A stretch of DNA of 38,818 bases from Longimicrobium sp. (GTDB lineage: Bacteria > Gemmatimonadota > Gemmatimonadetes > Longimicrobiales > Longimicrobiaceae): NCBI GenBank assembly GCA_036389795.1, contig DASVWD010000032.1:1-38818 (forward strand), written 5' to 3'. The notes below the pieces were generated by a model that had not been told where the DNA came from, did not search any database, and was given only the letters and a program-made list of their open reading frames with translations. The position numbers and the translations under genes were made by a program. This document shows positions 8,363 through 18,717 of this stretch, in pieces (position 1 is the first letter of the stretch; each line of letters begins with the position of its first letter).

Positions 8363-9239
8363 ATTCATCGACCCGCATACCTCGACCTCCAGCGCTCTCC
8401 CGCAGCGCCTGGCGCATCACCTCGACCGGGGGGTCCACGGCCCACCAGCGGCGGAAGGCGGCGGCGCCCTGGCTGACCAGCACCTCGGTGCCGTCGGCAG
8501 CGCGGATGCCCGCCGCGCGCATCGCCCGCACCCACGGGGTCTCGCCGCCGCGCGCGTAGACGAGGTCCAGGGCGGCGCGGAAAACGGCGCCTCCGGTGGG
8601 GGGGAGCGGGTCGTCCGGGCGCAGCCCGAGCGAGGTGGCGTTCATCGCCAGGTCGAAGGCGTGGCCCGACAGGTCGTCGTCCGGTTCCGCGACGTCGATG
8701 CGGAAGCCGAAGGTGTCCCAGCGCTCCTTCAATTCCTCGGCGCGCGCGCGGCTCCGGTTGAGGAGCGTGACGTGCTCCACCCCGCCGGCCTGCAGCGCGT
8801 AGAGCGCCGCGCGGGCCGCGCCCCCGGCGCCCACCAGCAGCACGCGGTCGGCCAGCATGGAGCCCCACTCGGTCTCGCCCACCAGCGCGCGGACGGCCTT
8901 CGCCACGCCCTCCACGTCGGTGTTGTCGCCCCACACCTCGCCGCCCTCCAGCCAGAAGCAGTTGCACGCGCCGGTCAGCTCCACGGCGGGCGTGTGGCGC
9001 TCCACGGCGCGCGCGGCCGCCTCCTTGTGCGGCACGGTGACGTTGCCGCCGCCGCCCGCGCGCGCCAGGGCGCGGATGAGCCCGGCGACGTCGTCCGCCG
9101 AACACCGCAGGGCCACGTAGACGCCGTCGAGGCGGAGGGCGCGGAGGGCGGCGTTCTGGAAGACGGGGGAGAGGGAGTGCGAGACCGGGTCGCCGAGCAG
9201 CGCGAAGAGCCGGGTGGCGGCGGTGACGGGCGGCGTCAC
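8355..9239 (-). CDS. aroE: Shikimate dehydrogenase
   Basis: AroE reduces 3-dehydroshikimate to shikimate with NADPH in aromatic amino acid synthesis. The product has 294 residues. The substrate domain contains GDPVSHSLSPVFQNAA, the catalytic lysine in NVTVPHKE, the asparagine in ACNCFW and the aspartate in GDNTDVEG. The cofactor domain has GAGGAARAALYAL and the NRS(R)xRAEEL stretch of NADP-specific enzymes. The start is the GTG at 9239, overlapping the phosphatase TGA as GTGA, so translation is probably coupled. The C-terminal end reads into a dispersed repeat hairpin, so the last few residues may have been altered by its insertion. Confidence 0.96.
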   Translation of the reverse strand: MTPPVTAATRLFALLGDPVSHSLSPVFQNAALRALRLDGVYVALRCSADDVAGLIRALARAGGGGNVTVPHKEAAARAVERHTPAVELTGACNCFWLEGGEVWGDNTDVEGVAKAVRALVGETEWGSMLADRVLLVGAGGAARAALYALQAGGVEHVTLLNRSRARAEELKERWDTFGFRIDVAEPDDDLSGHAFDLAMNATSLGLRPDDPLPPTGGAVFRAALDLVYARGGETPWVRAMRAAGIRAADGTEVLVSQGAAAFRRWWAVDPPVEVMRQALRESAGGRGMRVDECG

Positions 9240-9745
9240 GGCGCCAGGATCGGGGCCAGGCGGTCGAGCGCGGCGGAGATCAGCCCGCAGAGCTCCTGGT
9301 AGGTCTCTTCGTAGACCGCCTCGCTCCCGCCGAAGGGGTCGGCCACGGGGTAGCCGAAGCCGTCGCCGCCGGCCACGAAGTCGCCCAGGGTGGCGGCCCG
9401 GTCCAGCCCGCCCACGCGCTCCACGCCGTCCAGGTGCGAGGGGCCCATCCCCAGGATCAGGTCGGCCCAGCCGGCCAGCTCGGGGGTGAGCGGCTGCGAG
9501 CGGTGGGCGGAGAGGTCGATCCCGTGGCGCCCGGCGACCGCCACGGCCTCGCGGCTGGCCTGGTCGCCGCCGCGCGCGGCCAGGCCGGCCGAGGCCACGC
9601 GCACGTTCTTCCACCCGCGGCGCTCCAACTCGGCGCGCGCGATCCCCTCCGCCAGCGGGGAGCGGCAGGTGTTCCCCGTGCAGACGAAGAGGATGTTGAA
9701 GGTGGTGGTGCGCGGGGACGCGGTCCCGGCGGCCTGCTCGCTCAT
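9236..9745 (-). CDS. Low-molecular-weight phosphotyrosine protein phosphatase
   Basis: This cytoplasmic phosphatase family removes phosphate from tyrosine residues; bacterial members often act on tyrosine kinases of capsule systems, while others are related to arsenate reductases. The product has 169 residues from an ATG at 9745 preceded by AAGGGA; upstream ATGs at 9784 and 9847 are possible. The P-loop is V-C22-TGNTC-R28-SP, and the general acid aspartate lies in VADPFGG near the C-terminus. LILGMGPSHL and the helix around EETYQELCGLI are typical. The DPFG sequence instead of DPY is common in bacterial members. It overlaps aroE by 4 bases. No kinase partner is in the window. Confidence 0.93.
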   Translation of the reverse strand: MSEQAAGTASPRTTTFNILFVCTGNTCRSPLAEGIARAELERRGWKNVRVASAGLAARGGDQASREAVAVAGRHGIDLSAHRSQPLTPELAGWADLILGMGPSHLDGVERVGGLDRAATLGDFVAGGDGFGYPVADPFGGSEAVYEETYQELCGLISAALDRLAPILAP

Positions 9746-9896: not shown

Positions 9897-12800
9897 TCAT
9901 TCCGGATTGAGCCGCTCTCTCAACTGCCGGATCGGGACGACCTGATCCGGAGGCAATGCGAGGTCTTTCTTGAATTGCATGGGAACCTCGGCATTTGTGA
10001 CAAGGAGCGGGACGGCTTCGGTCGCCGTGCGCGGGATGCCGAGCTTCTTGCGGACTGCGGCGAGATGCTGACGAACCCACTCAACCCGACGCAGGTGCCG
10101 CCCAAGGCGGTCTAAGCTCTCGCCCCGAAACTCATTCAGTCTTTCCACGATCTCGCCGATTGCGCGAGCCGGCTGCAGCCGTTTGCACTCAATCAGCAAA
10201 ATGCGCTCGTCCGCGGGGTCCCACGCGACCACGTCCACGTCACCGAAATCCTTAGGTGCGCCGAGGCTCCGCATCTCCACCTCTCTACTAGTCTGCCATC
10301 CAAGCCGCCGCAACTCCAACTCGACTTCCATCGTGAACGCATGCCCCAGCATATCGGCGACTCTGCCCCGATACTCACGCATCTCAGTAGAAACGAAGAA
10401 TTCTGTGGGCAGCGACGCCGACCGGATGTTCTCTAAGAGATAGGAAAGACTGGCTGCGACTTGGTGCATGCCGTAAAGAACGGGAGCGTCCGGTCCGGAC
10501 CCGAACGTGACCACCGGCCGCGCAATCAAAGAGAGCCTGCGGCGGAAGCGCCACGGTGTCCAGTCACGTGCCTGGAACCCAGGAGGCTCCACGTCCCAGC
10601 GTTCGCGCGGCTCCAGCGCAAATACACCGAAAAAGGCGTGGCACTCCGCTTCTGTAAAGCCGCGCCGCTCCTGCAGCCGCGCCGCGATTGCGCCACGCGT
10701 GGAGGCCGGCACAAGCTGGTCTGCCTCCTTCGCCAAATCCAACAGTTCGGCGACTGCATCAATCAGCCTTGACGGTGTAAACCCATACTCACAGCGGAAC
10801 GCGTCAGCGAAATCGGAGGTCTCGTACCGCACATTGTGCTCGCTGGCCTCCCGGTGACGATGCGGACGAAAGAACCTGTCGTAGTCTGCGACAGCCTCAC
10901 GGAATCCCGTAGCGAACGACTGCTGAACGTACGGGCTCGCCACTTCCGCGAGGAACTCATGATCACGCTCAACCGTGCCGTTCGGCTGGATCTTCAGCCA
11001 CGGCTCGGCGGCCCCACCGCGGATCGCGTCCGAGTCGGCGGCAAGTTCAAAAAGCAGCGCCACAGCAGCTACAAGGCGATCGTAATCGGCGAGCGACGCC
11101 GGACGCCCACCCTCGCGGGGGCAGGTGGGCACCCCCATCTCAATCAGGACGCGAGTTGCCAGGCTTGCCAGCGACCGGTCCGATTCACGCCTCCCTGCGA
11201 TTTCCACCACGTCTTCCGGACCGTGGTATAGTGCCATCATCGCGCGCGCCGTCCGACGCCATTGTGTCCTGTCGCGGGAGATCGCCTCCAAATTCTCCAG
11301 AGCCATTCGTACGAGACTGGTGCCTTCGAGCGCCCGCAACTCGGTTCGGATCTCTTGCCACAGCGCGTCAACCAACGCATTGAGCGTGTCCGTGCACGTC
11401 TTTTTCTCTTTGAGCAGAACAGGCCCTTCTCCATCGGCGCGGTCGATGGCACGCCACCCTAGCCCGGTCATGTGCGCCGCCCAATCCTCGGGCTGAATCA
11501 GCCGTGGCCGCAGTTGTTCCCCCCATTGGATGTGGTCAAGGAGCGTCGGTGCTTGAAACAAGTGAACCGCCCGCGCATCGGCGTTCGGCATGACCACCGT
11601 TGTAAGTTCCCGCGCGTTGGCGTCCTTCCTTCCCCATCCCAACCCATCAAGCAGCGTAAGCAAGCCTGCAATCGTACTCTCCAAAAGGACGCGTTCAGCA
11701 TCGTTGGTCGGCCGATTCAAGAGAACGAGGAACCCGAACGGCAACCTGATCTCAACAACGGTCTTCTCCGGGGTGACCGTTATTGTCGGGAACTCTGGTT
11801 CCCCCTGACCCGCGGTGGTATCTAAGTCCCTCCATTCCGAGAGGTTCTGCAGCGAGAGCCGGACGTGTAGAGGCGGGGCGCCGGCGGGAGGGACAGCCGC
11901 TTCCAGCAGTGGCATCGCACGGTTGAGCCAAGCCAGCAGCCCATCCCAAAGGTCATACACAAGGCGCATCGCGTTCGGAACGTCGTCAGGCCGAGTCGCC
12001 CACACCCAGATGACGAGCGCTTGACCCTCTACGACACCGGCAAGTTCGCCGGTACCCGCCAACTCGGTGGATGCGTAAACGGGTTGCATGTTGAGACCTG
12101 CGAAGAAAGCGTCGCGATGCAGGCGCACAACGGTTACATGGCTCCGGCTGTCAAGAGGAGCAGCGTGCTCGTCGGTCCTCCTGCGCTCTGAAGCGCGGAA
12201 TCCGTGCACGAAGTTGGTGCCAGGATGCAGCAGTGCGTGGTCTGCCGGATAAGGAAACTCTCTCGGAATGAGGTGAAATCCTTGATGCGCCCAGAAGGCA
12301 TACATGTTCAGAGTGCCACTCAGCTCGGTGATGGAAACGCCGTCCTCAAATGCGTCCTTGATCTGCTCATAGAGTTTGTAAAGCCTCAGGAAAGACGCAC
12401 CCTCCGACCACGCGAAGGTCTCTAGATTGGGTAGGCTGATCACAACGATGTGCCAGCTGTCCGGGAGATCGGGCAACTCAAGCATCATCCCGCGCCCGAG
12501 CCCTCCTCGGACGATAACAGTGAGCCCGCCGACGGCCTGCTGGCGAAGGTACTCGGCCGTCGCAACCAGGTGCTCTTCGAATTGTTTCTGACTCTCCTCC
12601 GTCAGTTGCGCGGTCGAGTTCAGCCCGTGCGTCCGAACCGCGTCCGGATCATCATGCAGCAGGACGACGTGCGCGGCCTTGTCCACATCGATCGCGCAGA
12701 TCACAGCTTCCGCTGGGACACCCGCACCGACAGCTGGAGGCTCCGCCGGCAGTCCGCCCACGAAACGATCCGTGGGCTCAGCCAAGTGCTTCAGCAGCCG

Positions 12801-13661
12801 GTGAACCGTGTCACGTTGCTTTACTCGCAGGTATGCGCAGAACTCAGTTGTCTGCCCCTCCCCCGCAAGCCACTCCAGAACGAAGCGGCGGATGGCTGCG
12901 CTCGCGGCCGTAGGGCAGGCGAACAATACCGCGTCGCCAAAATTGATGAGTGGATGCCGCTCCAAGGTGGTATGCCCCAGGACCTCGTGTCCTAGGTGAA
13001 CACGCGCCTGCTGGGGGAAAAAGAAGGGGGCGAGCGCTTCGGGATTGATCCCGATTGCGGAGAGTTCCGGAAAGGTGAAAGTAACCCGCGCAACCAGTTC
13101 GGGCAGCTTGGGCAACGACCGTAGGAAGCGATCGGTTGGTATCGCGCGATCGGAAGTTACCCAGCGCGCGAGACCAGCCCTCTCGACCAAAGCATCACTG
13201 AGTGCCAGTAAGGCAGTGACGCTGTGCCGCAATTCGCGGTGAGGCCGCGCCCAGCGCGTACGCGAGATGCAATCGAGCAGGTTTTGTAGGTAATAGTCGT
13301 TCACCTCCCAAATCCCTTCCAGAAGCCGGTAGTTTCCGCCCGGCCCGATCACATTTGATACGAACACGTCCTCGGGTGGATCTTCGTCACGTCGTACCGG
13401 GTGCTTCGCGAGCACCACCTCGAGCCACTTTGCGAGGTCCTTCGATCCAGGGCGGACGGTGCCCCGGCAATGCAGGCATGCGAGGTGGAGCAGGATCTCT
13501 ATCCGGAGCGTTTCTGGATGGTACTCGGGGACAGTGAGCAGACCCGCGGCACAACTTATCGTGGAGCGCGGGTCAAAGCGCGCAAGTGTTTTCGCGAGCC
13601 CCTCATACGAAGGATCACCGATGAAGAGAGAGTGTCCCGCGATGGGAAACAACTGATCCAT
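9897..13661 (-). CDS. Giant protein with C-terminal PD-(D/E)XK nuclease motif, unknown family
   Basis: This 1254-residue protein (ATG at 13661, AGGAG closely upstream) is not recognised as a whole. The only clear motif is near the C-terminus: G-D1141-V-D1143-VVAW, 14 residues, then LLIE1158-C-K1160-RL, the D...ExK pattern of restriction-like nucleases, preceded by a glutamate-bearing helix (MEVELELRRLGW). After it come helices with ARAIGEIVERLNEF and a basic stretch. The first 1130 residues show no P-loop, helicase or transmembrane segments; one CxxC (CLHC) is near residue 65. Its bases are visibly less GC-rich than both neighbours and codons ending in A or T are common, so it looks transferred. 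It is flanked by ispD and the phosphatase, genes of ordinary composition. An antiviral or DNA-processing role is inference. Confidence 0.8.
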   Translation of the reverse strand: MDQLFPIAGHSLFIGDPSYEGLAKTLARFDPRSTISCAAGLLTVPEYHPETLRIEILLHLACLHCRGTVRPGSKDLAKWLEVVLAKHPVRRDEDPPEDVFVSNVIGPGGNYRLLEGIWEVNDYYLQNLLDCISRTRWARPHRELRHSVTALLALSDALVERAGLARWVTSDRAIPTDRFLRSLPKLPELVARVTFTFPELSAIGINPEALAPFFFPQQARVHLGHEVLGHTTLERHPLINFGDAVLFACPTAASAAIRRFVLEWLAGEGQTTEFCAYLRVKQRDTVHRLLKHLAEPTDRFVGGLPAEPPAVGAGVPAEAVICAIDVDKAAHVVLLHDDPDAVRTHGLNSTAQLTEESQKQFEEHLVATAEYLRQQAVGGLTVIVRGGLGRGMMLELPDLPDSWHIVVISLPNLETFAWSEGASFLRLYKLYEQIKDAFEDGVSITELSGTLNMYAFWAHQGFHLIPREFPYPADHALLHPGTNFVHGFRASERRRTDEHAAPLDSRSHVTVVRLHRDAFFAGLNMQPVYASTELAGTGELAGVVEGQALVIWVWATRPDDVPNAMRLVYDLWDGLLAWLNRAMPLLEAAVPPAGAPPLHVRLSLQNLSEWRDLDTTAGQGEPEFPTITVTPEKTVVEIRLPFGFLVLLNRPTNDAERVLLESTIAGLLTLLDGLGWGRKDANARELTTVVMPNADARAVHLFQAPTLLDHIQWGEQLRPRLIQPEDWAAHMTGLGWRAIDRADGEGPVLLKEKKTCTDTLNALVDALWQEIRTELRALEGTSLVRMALENLEAISRDRTQWRRTARAMMALYHGPEDVVEIAGRRESDRSLASLATRVLIEMGVPTCPREGGRPASLADYDRLVAAVALLFELAADSDAIRGGAAEPWLKIQPNGTVERDHEFLAEVASPYVQQSFATGFREAVADYDRFFRPHRHREASEHNVRYETSDFADAFRCEYGFTPSRLIDAVAELLDLAKEADQLVPASTRGAIAARLQERRGFTEAECHAFFGVFALEPRERWDVEPPGFQARDWTPWRFRRRLSLIARPVVTFGSGPDAPVLYGMHQVAASLSYLLENIRSASLPTEFFVSTEMREYRGRVADMLGHAFTMEVELELRRLGWQTSREVEMRSLGAPKDFGDVDVVAWDPADERILLIECKRLQPARAIGEIVERLNEFRGESLDRLGRHLRRVEWVRQHLAAVRKKLGIPRTATEAVPLLVTNAEVPMQFKKDLALPPDQVVPIRQLRERLNPE

Positions 13662-13746
13662 CTGCTCCTGCGAGGACGTTTGAGGATTGGTGATAACTCA
13701 AATGCTGGGGGAAGTTATGAAGGACGGAGCTGGCCGGGGCTCCGCG

Positions 13747-14457
13747 TCATTCGCTCTCCCCCGCCTCCGGGGCGAGGGCGAGCGCCTCGGCGACGGCCAG
13801 GTCGGCGCGGCGCGTCACCTTCAGGTTCCGGTACGAGCCCATCACCACGCGCACCGGGCCCGCGTAGCGCTCGTACAGCGCGGCGTCGTCCGTGGCCGCG
13901 ACGCCCTCCGCGCGGGCGAGCTCGTACGCGCGCACGATGCCGGCGCGGGGGAAGCCCTGCGGCGTCTGCGCCTGCCAGAGGCGCCCGCGCTCGGGGGTGC
14001 CGGTGATCGTCCCCGCGTCGTCCACTTCCTTGATGGTGTCGGTGACGGGGACGGCGGCGACGGCGCCCGCGTCCCGGCAGGCGTCCAGCACGCGGTCGAT
14101 CACCCCCTGCGACACGAACGGCCGCGCGCCGTCGTGGATCAGCACGAGGTCGACGTCGTCCGGCAGCGCGGAGAGCCCGTTCCAGACGGAGTCGCCGCGC
14201 TCGGCGCCGCCGGGCACGAGGGTGATCGGCAGGTGCGAGAGCCACCCGGGCGGGTCGTCCGCGTCGTCGGGGGGGATGACGACGACCGTGTGCCGGATGC
14301 GGGGGTGGTCGAGGAAGGGGCGGACGGCGCGCAGGAGGATCAGCTCGCCCGCGAGCGCCAGGTACTGCTTGCGCACGGGCCCGCCCACGCGCCGCCCGCT
14401 CCCGCCGGCGACCACGACGGCCGCGGCGCGCGGCTCAGCCGAAGACGCGCTGGACAA
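13747..14457 (-). CDS. ispD: 2-C-methyl-D-erythritol 4-phosphate cytidylyltransferase
   Basis: IspD couples methylerythritol phosphate to CTP in the non-mevalonate isoprenoid pathway. The 236-residue product shows the nucleotide-binding signature AVVVAGGSGRRVGG with K29 in VRKQYL, then LPDDVDLVLIHDGARPFVS, VPVTDTIKEVD, LWQAQTPQGF and the C-terminal TDDAALYE. The start appears to be a TTG at 14457, inside the last codons of radA, giving a 23-base overlap; no ATG or GTG gives a full first strand. It is co-directional with radA and dnaB. IspF, often adjacent, is not in the window. Downstream, 85 bases lead to the giant nuclease-like gene. Confidence 0.95.
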   Translation of the reverse strand: MSSASSAEPRAAAVVVAGGSGRRVGGPVRKQYLALAGELILLRAVRPFLDHPRIRHTVVVIPPDDADDPPGWLSHLPITLVPGGAERGDSVWNGLSALPDDVDLVLIHDGARPFVSQGVIDRVLDACRDAGAVAAVPVTDTIKEVDDAGTITGTPERGRLWQAQTPQGFPRAGIVRAYELARAEGVAATDDAALYERYAGPVRVVMGSYRNLKVTRRADLAVAEALALAPEAGESE

Positions 14458-15840: not shown

Positions 15841-18717
15841 TCATCCGCCGAACTCGTCCGAGCGCCCGGAGGCGCTCTCGAAGAGGGTGAACTCCTTGCG
15901 GAAGAAGAGCGGCACCATGCCGGTGGCCCCGTTGCGCTGCTTGCCGACGATCAGCTCGGCGCGCCCCTCGATGCTGTTCCCCTCCTTGTCCACCGGCCCG
16001 AAGTAGTACTCGGGGCGGTAGAGGAACATGATGACGTCCGCGTCCTGCTCGATCGCGCCCGACTCGCGCAGGTCCGACATCATCGGGCGCTTGTCGGGGC
16101 GGCTCTCGACGGCGCGGGAGAGCTGCGAGAGGGCGACCACGGGGATGTCCAGCTCCTTGGCGAGCGCCTTGAGGCCGCGGGAGATCTCGGAGACCTCCTG
16201 CTGGCGGTTCTCGATCTTGGAGTTGCTGCTCACCATGAGCTGCAGGTAGTCGACGATCACGAGCGACAGGTCGGGCCGGTCGGCCTTGAGGCGGCGGGCC
16301 TTGGCGCGCATCTCCAGCACCGAGATGCCGGGCGTGTCGTCGATGTAGATCGGCGCGGTGTTCAGGTGCCCCGCCGCGATGGCGAGCCGCGCGTACTCGT
16401 CGTCGAGCAGCTTGCCGCGGCGCAGCCGGCTGGCGTCCACCCGCGCCTCGGCGCAGAGCACACGCTGCACCAGCGCCTCCTTGCTCATCTCCAGCGAGAA
16501 GAAGGCGACCGGCTTCTGCGCGCTGATGGCGGCGTGCTGAGCGATGTTGAGGGTGAACGCCGTGTTGTGCACGCACACGTCGTTGGCGACGAAGTTGTGC
16601 GTTTCCGGGATCGTGAGGTCGTATACCTGCTTGCGGCCGACGGGCTCGATGGAGACGACCTCGTCCCAGTAGACCTCGCTCTCGGCCAGCTCCAGCAGCC
16701 TGCGGCTGTCCAGCGCGACGGCGAGCGCGCGCAGCCGGTCCCGCGTGATCGCGCGGCGGCCGACGTGGAGGTTCGTCCACCCGGCGATGCCCGCCCGCCG
16801 CGCGAGCGAGGCCCACGACTCCTCCCCCTTCTCCTGCTCGATCGTCTCCCAGACCTGGCGGGGGACGAGGTCGCGGTTGGTCTGGTAGCGCTTCGACTCC
16901 ACCGCGGAGACGACGCGCTCGACGGCTTCCTCCTTTCCGAAGATGCCGATCTCGCGCGCGAAGGTGCGGAGCGAGCGAGCGTCGGTGACGTCGAGCTGCC
17001 AGGCGGGCCGGCGTCCGTCGCGGTACTTCACCATCCGGCGGCGCAGGCTGGCGATCACGCCGAAGCGCAGCAGCAGGTGCTGGATCTGCCGGGCGAGCCG
17101 CTCGCTCACCGTGGCGTAACCCACCTGCGCCTGGCCGCTGGCGAGCACCGTCGCCCAGCCGTCGGTCGCGAAGAGACGGTTGAGGAAGAGCGCGAGCTGC
17201 GGGCGCGGAAGGGGGAACACCCGGGCAGGGACGGACTTCTCCGCCGCGCCGTGTCCCCACAGCCCCAGCTCGGTGAGCCAGGCCGTCAGCGGATTGGCGT
17301 CCGACGGCAGTCGCTGCGGCGCGAGCTCGTCCACCGTGACGCCGAGCGCGATGGCGAGCCGGGGGAGGTGTTCCCGCTTCGGAGACGACGTGCCGCTGGT
17401 CCAGGTGGAAACCGCCGCGGCGCTCACGCCCACTTCGGCGGCCAGCCGCTTCCCCGCCCCGCGCTCCGCCTTCATCCGCGCCTGCAGGCGGCCGCGGATC
17501 GGGGAATCGCCGGTCGGCAGGAAGTTGCGCCGCACCGACAGGCTCGGCGTGCGCGTGCCGCCGGAATCCTCCTCCGTCACCAGCAGTCCGCCGAACTGGA
17601 AGACGGCCTCCGTGAAATCGGCGCGGACGCGCGGGTCTCCGTTGGTGAAGCGCGGCGTCGTGTTTGTCAGCCCGCCGTCGCCGATCAGGTAGGCGAGGAG
17701 CTTGACCTCGCACTCGCGCATCGTCTGCGTGCCGAAGACGTCGAGCACGCGCGGGACGGCGACGTGATCGCCGACCGCCACCTCGGCGAGCGGCTTCCAC
17801 CCGCCGATGGTGAGGAAGGGGTGCGTGAGCGTGGTCTCGACCGTCCGGCCCAGGCGCGTGGTGACGCGGAAGACGGGCTTCTCGCCGTCGTCCACGAAGG
17901 CGCTGGGCTCCGCCGCCTCGAACTTCCAGCGGCCGGTGAGGGTGAGCAGGCGCGCCGAGCGGCGGCGGTACAGCTCCTCGATGGTGGCGAGGGAGCCGTC
18001 GTCCAGCAGGATCTCGGAGTCGAACGCCAGGCACTTCCCCATCGACGGGCGGGCGGCGACGATGATGAGGTCGCTGTTCTGGAAGCCCGCCGTCAGCTCG
18101 TCGAGGTCGGCGAAGCCGGAGGGGACGCCGGTGATGGAGGAGGAGTTGTTCTGCAGCTGCTCGATCTTCTCGAACGTGGGCCAGAGGATCTCCTTGATCC
18201 ACACGAAGCCGCGCCGGTCGCTGGACTGGGCGAGCTGGAAGATGCGCTGCTCGGCCACGTCCATGAGCTGCTCGACCTCGCCCTGCCAGGCGTAGGTCTC
18301 CTGGATGATCCCCGTGGCCGCCTCGATCAGCCGGCGCAGGATCGCCTTCTCGCGGACGATCTTGCAGTGGTACTCGATGTTGGCCGCGGTGGGGACGGCG
18401 TCCAGGAGGTTGGCCAGGAACTGGATGCCGCCCACCGTCTCGAAGTCGCCCGCCTTCTTCAGCTCGTCGCTGACGGTGACCTCGTCGATCACGTCGCCGC
18501 GCTGCCAGATGCGCACGAGCGCGCGGAAGAGCCGCCGGTGCGCCTCGCGGTGGAACATCGAGTCGTCGACCACCTCCACCGCGCGCACCACGGCGTCCTG
18601 GTCGATCAGCATGCCGCCCAGCACCGCCATCTCGGCCTCGGGCGAGTACGGCGGCGAGCGGTCGGCGAACGCGCTCGGGGCGGAGGGCGGCGCGATGGCT
18701 AAGGCGGGGGTCGACAT
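15841..18717 (-). CDS. dnaB: Replicative DNA helicase DnaB with an intein in Walker A
   Basis: DnaB is the hexameric helicase that unwinds the replication fork. The precursor has 958 residues; removing the intein (229-718) leaves a normal 468-residue helicase. Extein N-part: the DnaB N-terminal domain (SPEAEMAVLGGMLID, residues 25-125), linker, and AARPSMGK (K228), the first part of Walker A. Extein C-part: TAFTLNIAQHAA from T719, then VAFFSLEMSKEALVQR, Walker B LSLVIVDYLQLM, SQLSRAVESRPDKRPMMSDLRESGAIEQDAD and LIVGKQRNGATG. The intein separates K and T of the P-loop, so the helicase should be inactive until splicing. The ATG at 18717 has no clear ribosome site. It is followed by radA after 41 bases. 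Confidence 0.97.
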   Translation of the reverse strand: MSTPALAIAPPSAPSAFADRSPPYSPEAEMAVLGGMLIDQDAVVRAVEVVDDSMFHREAHRRLFRALVRIWQRGDVIDEVTVSDELKKAGDFETVGGIQFLANLLDAVPTAANIEYHCKIVREKAILRRLIEAATGIIQETYAWQGEVEQLMDVAEQRIFQLAQSSDRRGFVWIKEILWPTFEKIEQLQNNSSSITGVPSGFADLDELTAGFQNSDLIIVAARPSMGKCLAFDSEILLDDGSLATIEELYRRRSARLLTLTGRWKFEAAEPSAFVDDGEKPVFRVTTRLGRTVETTLTHPFLTIGGWKPLAEVAVGDHVAVPRVLDVFGTQTMRECEVKLLAYLIGDGGLTNTTPRFTNGDPRVRADFTEAVFQFGGLLVTEEDSGGTRTPSLSVRRNFLPTGDSPIRGRLQARMKAERGAGKRLAAEVGVSAAAVSTWTSGTSSPKREHLPRLAIALGVTVDELAPQRLPSDANPLTAWLTELGLWGHGAAEKSVPARVFPLPRPQLALFLNRLFATDGWATVLASGQAQVGYATVSERLARQIQHLLLRFGVIASLRRRMVKYRDGRRPAWQLDVTDARSLRTFAREIGIFGKEEAVERVVSAVESKRYQTNRDLVPRQVWETIEQEKGEESWASLARRAGIAGWTNLHVGRRAITRDRLRALAVALDSRRLLELAESEVYWDEVVSIEPVGRKQVYDLTIPETHNFVANDVCVHNTAFTLNIAQHAAISAQKPVAFFSLEMSKEALVQRVLCAEARVDASRLRRGKLLDDEYARLAIAAGHLNTAPIYIDDTPGISVLEMRAKARRLKADRPDLSLVIVDYLQLMVSSNSKIENRQQEVSEISRGLKALAKELDIPVVALSQLSRAVESRPDKRPMMSDLRESGAIEQDADVIMFLYRPEYYFGPVDKEGNSIEGRAELIVGKQRNGATGMVPLFFRKEFTLFESASGRSDEFGG
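16564..18033 (-). mobile_element. DnaB intein with LAGLIDADG endonuclease and embedded helix-turn-helix
   Basis: The intein is a 490-residue insertion in frame at the DnaB P-loop. It opens with C229 (CLAFDSEILL, block A), has T296-x-x-H299 (block B), and ends with VYDLTIPETHNFVAN (block F) and VCVHN718 (block G), followed by T719 as the C-extein nucleophile. All splicing residues are present, so it should splice. The centre is a LAGLIDADG-type homing endonuclease: LLAYLIGDGGL (340-350) and LFLNRLFATDGWA (510-522) are its two acidic blocks, both intact. Between them, residues about 413-465 read as a Cro/XRE-like helix-turn-helix (KRLAAEVGVSAAAVSTWTSG... LPRLAIALGVTVDEL). A second possible DNA-binding segment is near 615-675. 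The element is likely still able to home. Confidence 0.93.

Follow-up and report, generated by a model that had tools for sequence, protein, structure and literature searches.

The window, by which we mean the whole 38,818-nucleotide stretch of DNA that was analysed, contains an upx-like open reading frame of 1254 codons (9897-13661, minus strand) with an ATG start and a plausible ribosome-binding sequence just ahead of it (Table 1). The initial annotation of this DNA, made from the sequence alone, had placed a gene for 1254 residues at exactly these positions, with no strand given. It had also described the base composition as lower than that of the neighbouring genes, and the figures bear this out: GC content is 61.2% in the upx-like gene versus 72.8% in the rest of the window, where 3765-bp stretches without overlap with the gene span 70.2-74.7% (SD 1.2%), and GC3 is 0.69 versus 0.96-0.99 in ispD, radA, dnaB, coaBC and aroE. 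The two flanking genes had been named correctly as ispD, which lies upstream of upx and which we assign to TIGR00453, and a phosphatase gene, which lies downstream, is phosphatase-like and carries a CTGNTCRSPLAEG motif. The further remark that no methylase, helicase or toxin partner accompanies the gene also holds, as none adjoins it in the window; dnaB (15841-18717) encodes the housekeeping replicative helicase. The 958-aa product of this dnaB gene (minus strand) is interrupted by an intein, with the N-terminal splicing region TIGR01445 at residues 229-303.

Table 1. Features of the upx-like locus and of the corresponding junction in a sister genome (window coordinates unless a locus is named)
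Feature	Position	Strand	Basis or remark
Low-molecular-weight phosphatase-like gene, housekeeping, right border of insertion site	9236..9745	minus	Sister homologs 62-71% identity
upx-like gene, 1254 aa	9897..13661	minus	ORF; NCBIfam, PADLOC and PDB 9WUF matches
PD-(D/E)XK nuclease core, residues ~1092-1222	9996..10388	minus	AlphaFold model
ECK, residues 1158-1160, with catalytic-type E1158 and K1160	10182..10190	minus	E1158 and K1160 100%, C1159 97% conserved
GDVDVVAW, residues 1140-1147, with catalytic-type D1143	10221..10244	minus	G1140 and D1143 100% conserved
N-terminal body, residues 1-1091	10389..13661	minus	AlphaFold model; only Foldseek relative 9WUF (E < 0.001)
PWRFRRRLS motif, residues 1036-1044	10530..10556	minus	Most conserved block before the nuclease
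AGGAG, Shine-Dalgarno-like (RBS-like), 3 nt 5' of upx ATG	13665..13669	minus	Read from sequence
ispD, housekeeping, left border of insertion site	13747..14436	minus	TIGR00453 E 2e-66; adjoins phosphatase gene in sisters
CoiA-domain protein, 469 aa, ispD-phosphatase junction of sister genome G001	L033:1609-3018		

Profile searches indicated that the encoded protein is related to Upx antiphage proteins along its entire length. The NCBIfam model Upx_antiphage (NF042954.1) aligned residues 22-1236 with profile positions 22-1228 of 1240 (647.6 bits, E 2.7e-194), and the PADLOC Upx model (PDLC02221) gave 563.9 bits (E 1.4e-169). Among solved structures the sole sequence relative was PDB 9WUF (phmmer E 7.9e-116), titled 'Cryo-EM structure of Upx' in the fold library and released on 2026-02-11. 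Profile searches of the PDB returned 9WUF as the sole match to the C part of the protein (E 2.7e-218) and as the sole strong match to the N part (E 9.9e-208). The initial annotation had regarded the protein as an orphan with 1100 residues of no recognised family, a description that must be abandoned given the full-length matches to Upx and the existence of a relative's structure. No Pfam model matched the window protein, which explains the orphan impression. The curated equivalog cut-off of NF042954.1 is 1900 bits, and since the window protein reaches about a third of this score, it is a clear but divergent Upx homolog and not an equivalog in the narrow sense. On the same model, the Salmonella plasmid Upx fragment that served as positive control scored 1483 bits, and Deinococcus, Bosea and Sinorhizobium plasmid relatives, together with one from another genome of the same order, scored 110-482 bits. 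One weak partial match to GapS1 (NF047931; E 0.022, residues 200-267) was dismissed as chance, as none of the N-terminal halves of 58 relatives matched it at E 0.05. A SEC-C type zinc-binding motif (TIGR04102, PRK01617) was matched by the N-terminal half of one of these 58 relatives; this sequence match suggests an occasional added domain in the family. Upx was reportedly named as an uncharacterised PD-(D/E)XK defence protein in the 2020 screen of Gao et al. Our search of the open literature found no mechanistic paper on Upx and no experiments on the window protein or its closest relatives.

AlphaFold models were built from 58-row alignments in two pieces, residues 1-615 (pLDDT 90.8, pTM 0.92) and 616-1254 (pLDDT 92.7, pTM 0.91). 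Foldseek found 9WUF as the only match at E < 0.001 for both the N part (E 1.1e-29, TM 0.70) and the C part (E 2.4e-40, TM 0.84), so that among solved structures no fold relative besides Upx was detected for the N-terminal body; a comparison of the C part with viral folds gave no significant match. We also considered whether the two halves arose by internal duplication, and rejected this (hhalign probability 1%). In the model, the C-terminal region runs through a helix (1092-1119), three strands (1123-1129, 1141-1148 with D1143, and 1153-1160 ending in E1158-C-K1160) and a second helix (1168-1177), and this predicted order of elements is that of the canonical alpha-beta-beta-beta-alpha PD-(D/E)XK core. 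The initial annotation had read a GDVD...IECK nuclease motif at the C-terminal end and had named an ECK outside a nuclease core as grounds for rejecting its reading. D1143, E1158 and K1160 are present and invariant among 78 relatives, and AlphaFold places ECK within the core. Further residues at 100% in this 78-sequence alignment are G1140, H1189, R1192 and F1109, with E1170 at 98%, as well as P1036, W1037, R1041 and S1044 of the PWRFxRRLS block. The window protein thus has full-length collinear similarity to Upx (NF042954.1 and PADLOC Upx), a C-terminal PD-(D/E)XK domain with D, E and K in the nuclease core, and the overall fold of the solved Upx in both halves, placing it in the broad Upx family.

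A scan of our genome collection with a five-sequence alignment recovered 122 upx relatives from many phyla, 80 of which were fetched; the window sequence alone recovered none, so that the alignment was needed. Their length is nearly constant at about 1240 aa, almost every complete one falling within about 1230-1270 aa. The phage collection contained no upx relatives, and no match to the Salmonella plasmid Upx was found in E. coli genomes at the sensitivity of megablast. Within the phylum, upx is carried by only 3 of 395 sampled genomes. The tree joins the window protein to a copy found in a different species of its genus (50% identity, SH-aLRT 100), and this pair lies inside a cluster of 16 rows drawn from Pseudomonadota, Nitrospirota, Zixiibacteriota and Bacillota, while two other Gemmatimonadota sequences (L055 and L059) fall apart from it. 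The upx genes average 4.6 GC points less than their flanks and are lower in 59 of 72 relatives (Wilcoxon p 3e-9). The mixing of phyla in the tree, the occurrence in 3 of 395 genomes and the base composition together point to horizontal transfer. An in-frame TAA at about residue 220 interrupts the closest relative, which is the 50%-identical copy of the same genus (L021:4440-8180, genome G005), and this copy may therefore be inactivated or split.

An empty counterpart of the locus in sister genomes, proposed earlier as a check on transfer, was found in most cases. The junction between ispD and the phosphatase gene is empty, with a spacing of 70-139 bp, in seven of the eight genomes of the genus in which both flanks are readable. 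The opposite outcome, homologs universally conserved at this position with normal composition, had been named as a refutation and was not seen: upx is not conserved there, and the G005 copy lies on a contig other than that of its ispD site. In the eighth sister (G001) the junction holds about 1.75 kb and codes for a 469-aa protein whose N-terminal domain is of the CoiA type (PF25164, E 5e-9) and for which PADLOC gave no match. With upx in the window and a CoiA-like insert in G001, the junction takes different cargo and is apparently a hotspot for insertions in the genus.

Taken together, these results lead us to conclude that the window gene belongs, as a divergent member, to the Upx single-gene antiphage family and was acquired horizontally into the ispD-phosphatase junction (probability roughly 0.85). 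The initial annotation had proposed a stand-alone defence protein with a restriction-like nuclease end, picked up by transfer, and the full-length Upx homology, the empty sister sites and the deviant composition support that proposal. On phage infection, the window protein would act alone as a DNase. The body of ~1,090 residues may sense a feature, nucleic-acid or protein, that is specific to phage, or may keep the nuclease inactive until it is triggered, and the D1143/E1158/K1160 site, with a divalent metal, would then cleave DNA, most probably that of the phage. The substrate, whether DNA or RNA and whether of phage or host origin, is judged from the fold class only. A possible but less favoured alternative is that the protein is an abortive-infection effector, which when triggered would destroy the host's DNA, or nucleic acid in general, and kill the cell instead of selectively restricting phage DNA. 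The single gene with its large, regulatory-looking body would suit such an effector, as would the lack of a type I specificity subunit in the window genome, and with no methylase or antitoxin linked to the gene in the window, self-protection by modification is not evident. However, nothing in the sequence separates phage from host targeting, and in several relatives the operon includes DNA methylases, a better fit to a restriction-like logic. Of the two, we favour selective cutting of phage DNA over a suicidal attack on the host's own.

Some neighbours of the relatives may bear on how such selectivity might arise. No partner gene is consistent across upx loci, none being common to more than eight; the commonest recurrent cluster consists of phage-type integrase-like proteins (eight loci), and Pfam Phage_integrase occurs in 5 of 124 scanned neighbours. 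A published survey of Pseudomonas locates Upx nearly always in a single defence hotspot, within the genomic island PAGI-1 (PMC12629846). Type I restriction-modification (RM) genes lie beside upx in several relatives. The order is hsdM-hsdS-upx-hsdR in a Nitrospira locus (L035:287-9958), with gaps of at most 16 bp around upx, and hsdM, hsdS, upx, a small ORF and hsdR at L041:3817-15841. Elsewhere hsdR follows upx directly (L064) or two genes on (L095), hsdM and an hsdS stand directly ahead of upx (L107:3721-11726), or an Eco57I-type methylase precedes it with a type I methylase farther out (L022/L059). At L036, hsdM, hsdR, a YgjP-like gene and a Fic gene are found ahead of upx. In three Vibrionaceae relatives, a protein of 181-194 aa is encoded directly downstream of upx (L080:11706-12251, L083:11677-12222 and L104:11694-12278); it looks membrane-bound, the one of the three that was searched had no Pfam match, and it is a possible lineage-specific partner of Upx.

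One reading of these operons, which we put forward as a doubtful idea, is that Upx, besides serving as a lone defence gene, is a modular nuclease that has repeatedly inserted between the hsdS and hsdR genes of type I RM operons and draws on the same methylation-based recognition of self, with the window lineage independent of RM; if so, that lineage would tell phage from self by another route. A still less probable reading takes Upx as a nuclease accessory of type I RM that recognises self through HsdS/HsdM, the window copy being a stray without its former partners. The RM genes beside upx in L035, L041, L095, L107, L064 and L022/L059 favour it, but most upx relatives have no adjoining RM gene, and co-location within defence islands would by itself yield part of the pattern. 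Moreover, a Methylase_S domain is absent from the whole of the window's genome, whereas the same search was positive in 9 of 14 control genomes, and no hsdM, hsdS or hsdR was present among the ten window proteins scanned. The lack of Methylase_S makes a type I partner unlikely for the window copy, and the window Upx probably works without a type I specificity subunit. That the gene is a decayed or inactive remnant, without any function today, is very improbable: its closest relative carries a stop codon and upx is rare in the phylum, but the window copy has an intact reading frame of the length usual in the family, retains all invariant catalytic residues, is preceded by a plausible ribosome-binding site and has a fold predicted with high confidence.

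Compared with known systems, the window protein is closest to Upx itself (NF042954.1, PDLC02221, 9WUF), which it resembles in collinearity over the full length, in length, in the C-terminal PD-(D/E)XK core with its invariant residues, in being a single gene of accessory distribution, and in predicted fold (TM 0.84 for the C part, 0.70 for the N part). It differs in sequence, at about 25-27% identity to 9WUF, and its branch shares about 30% or less with the tested Upx type; it stands with one other sequence of the same genus on a deep, separate branch, and the window copy does not lie in a recognisable defence island within the window. The likeness to type I RM systems lies in the co-location of HsdR, HsdM and HsdS genes with upx in several relatives, and HsdR also carries a PD-(D/E)XK nuclease. 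In contrast to those systems, Upx lacks a helicase motor, a methylase and a specificity domain, and none of these adjoins the window copy. Overall, the window gene reveals no new kind of system, since it belongs to a known and structurally solved antiphage family; what is new is the divergent branch. It extends a family with a little-explained mechanism to a deep lineage in what are probably the Gemmatimonadota and allows the ispD-phosphatase junction to be recognised as a variable site in the genus, while the link to type I RM operons seen in some relatives offers a testable idea on how Upx may discriminate self from phage.
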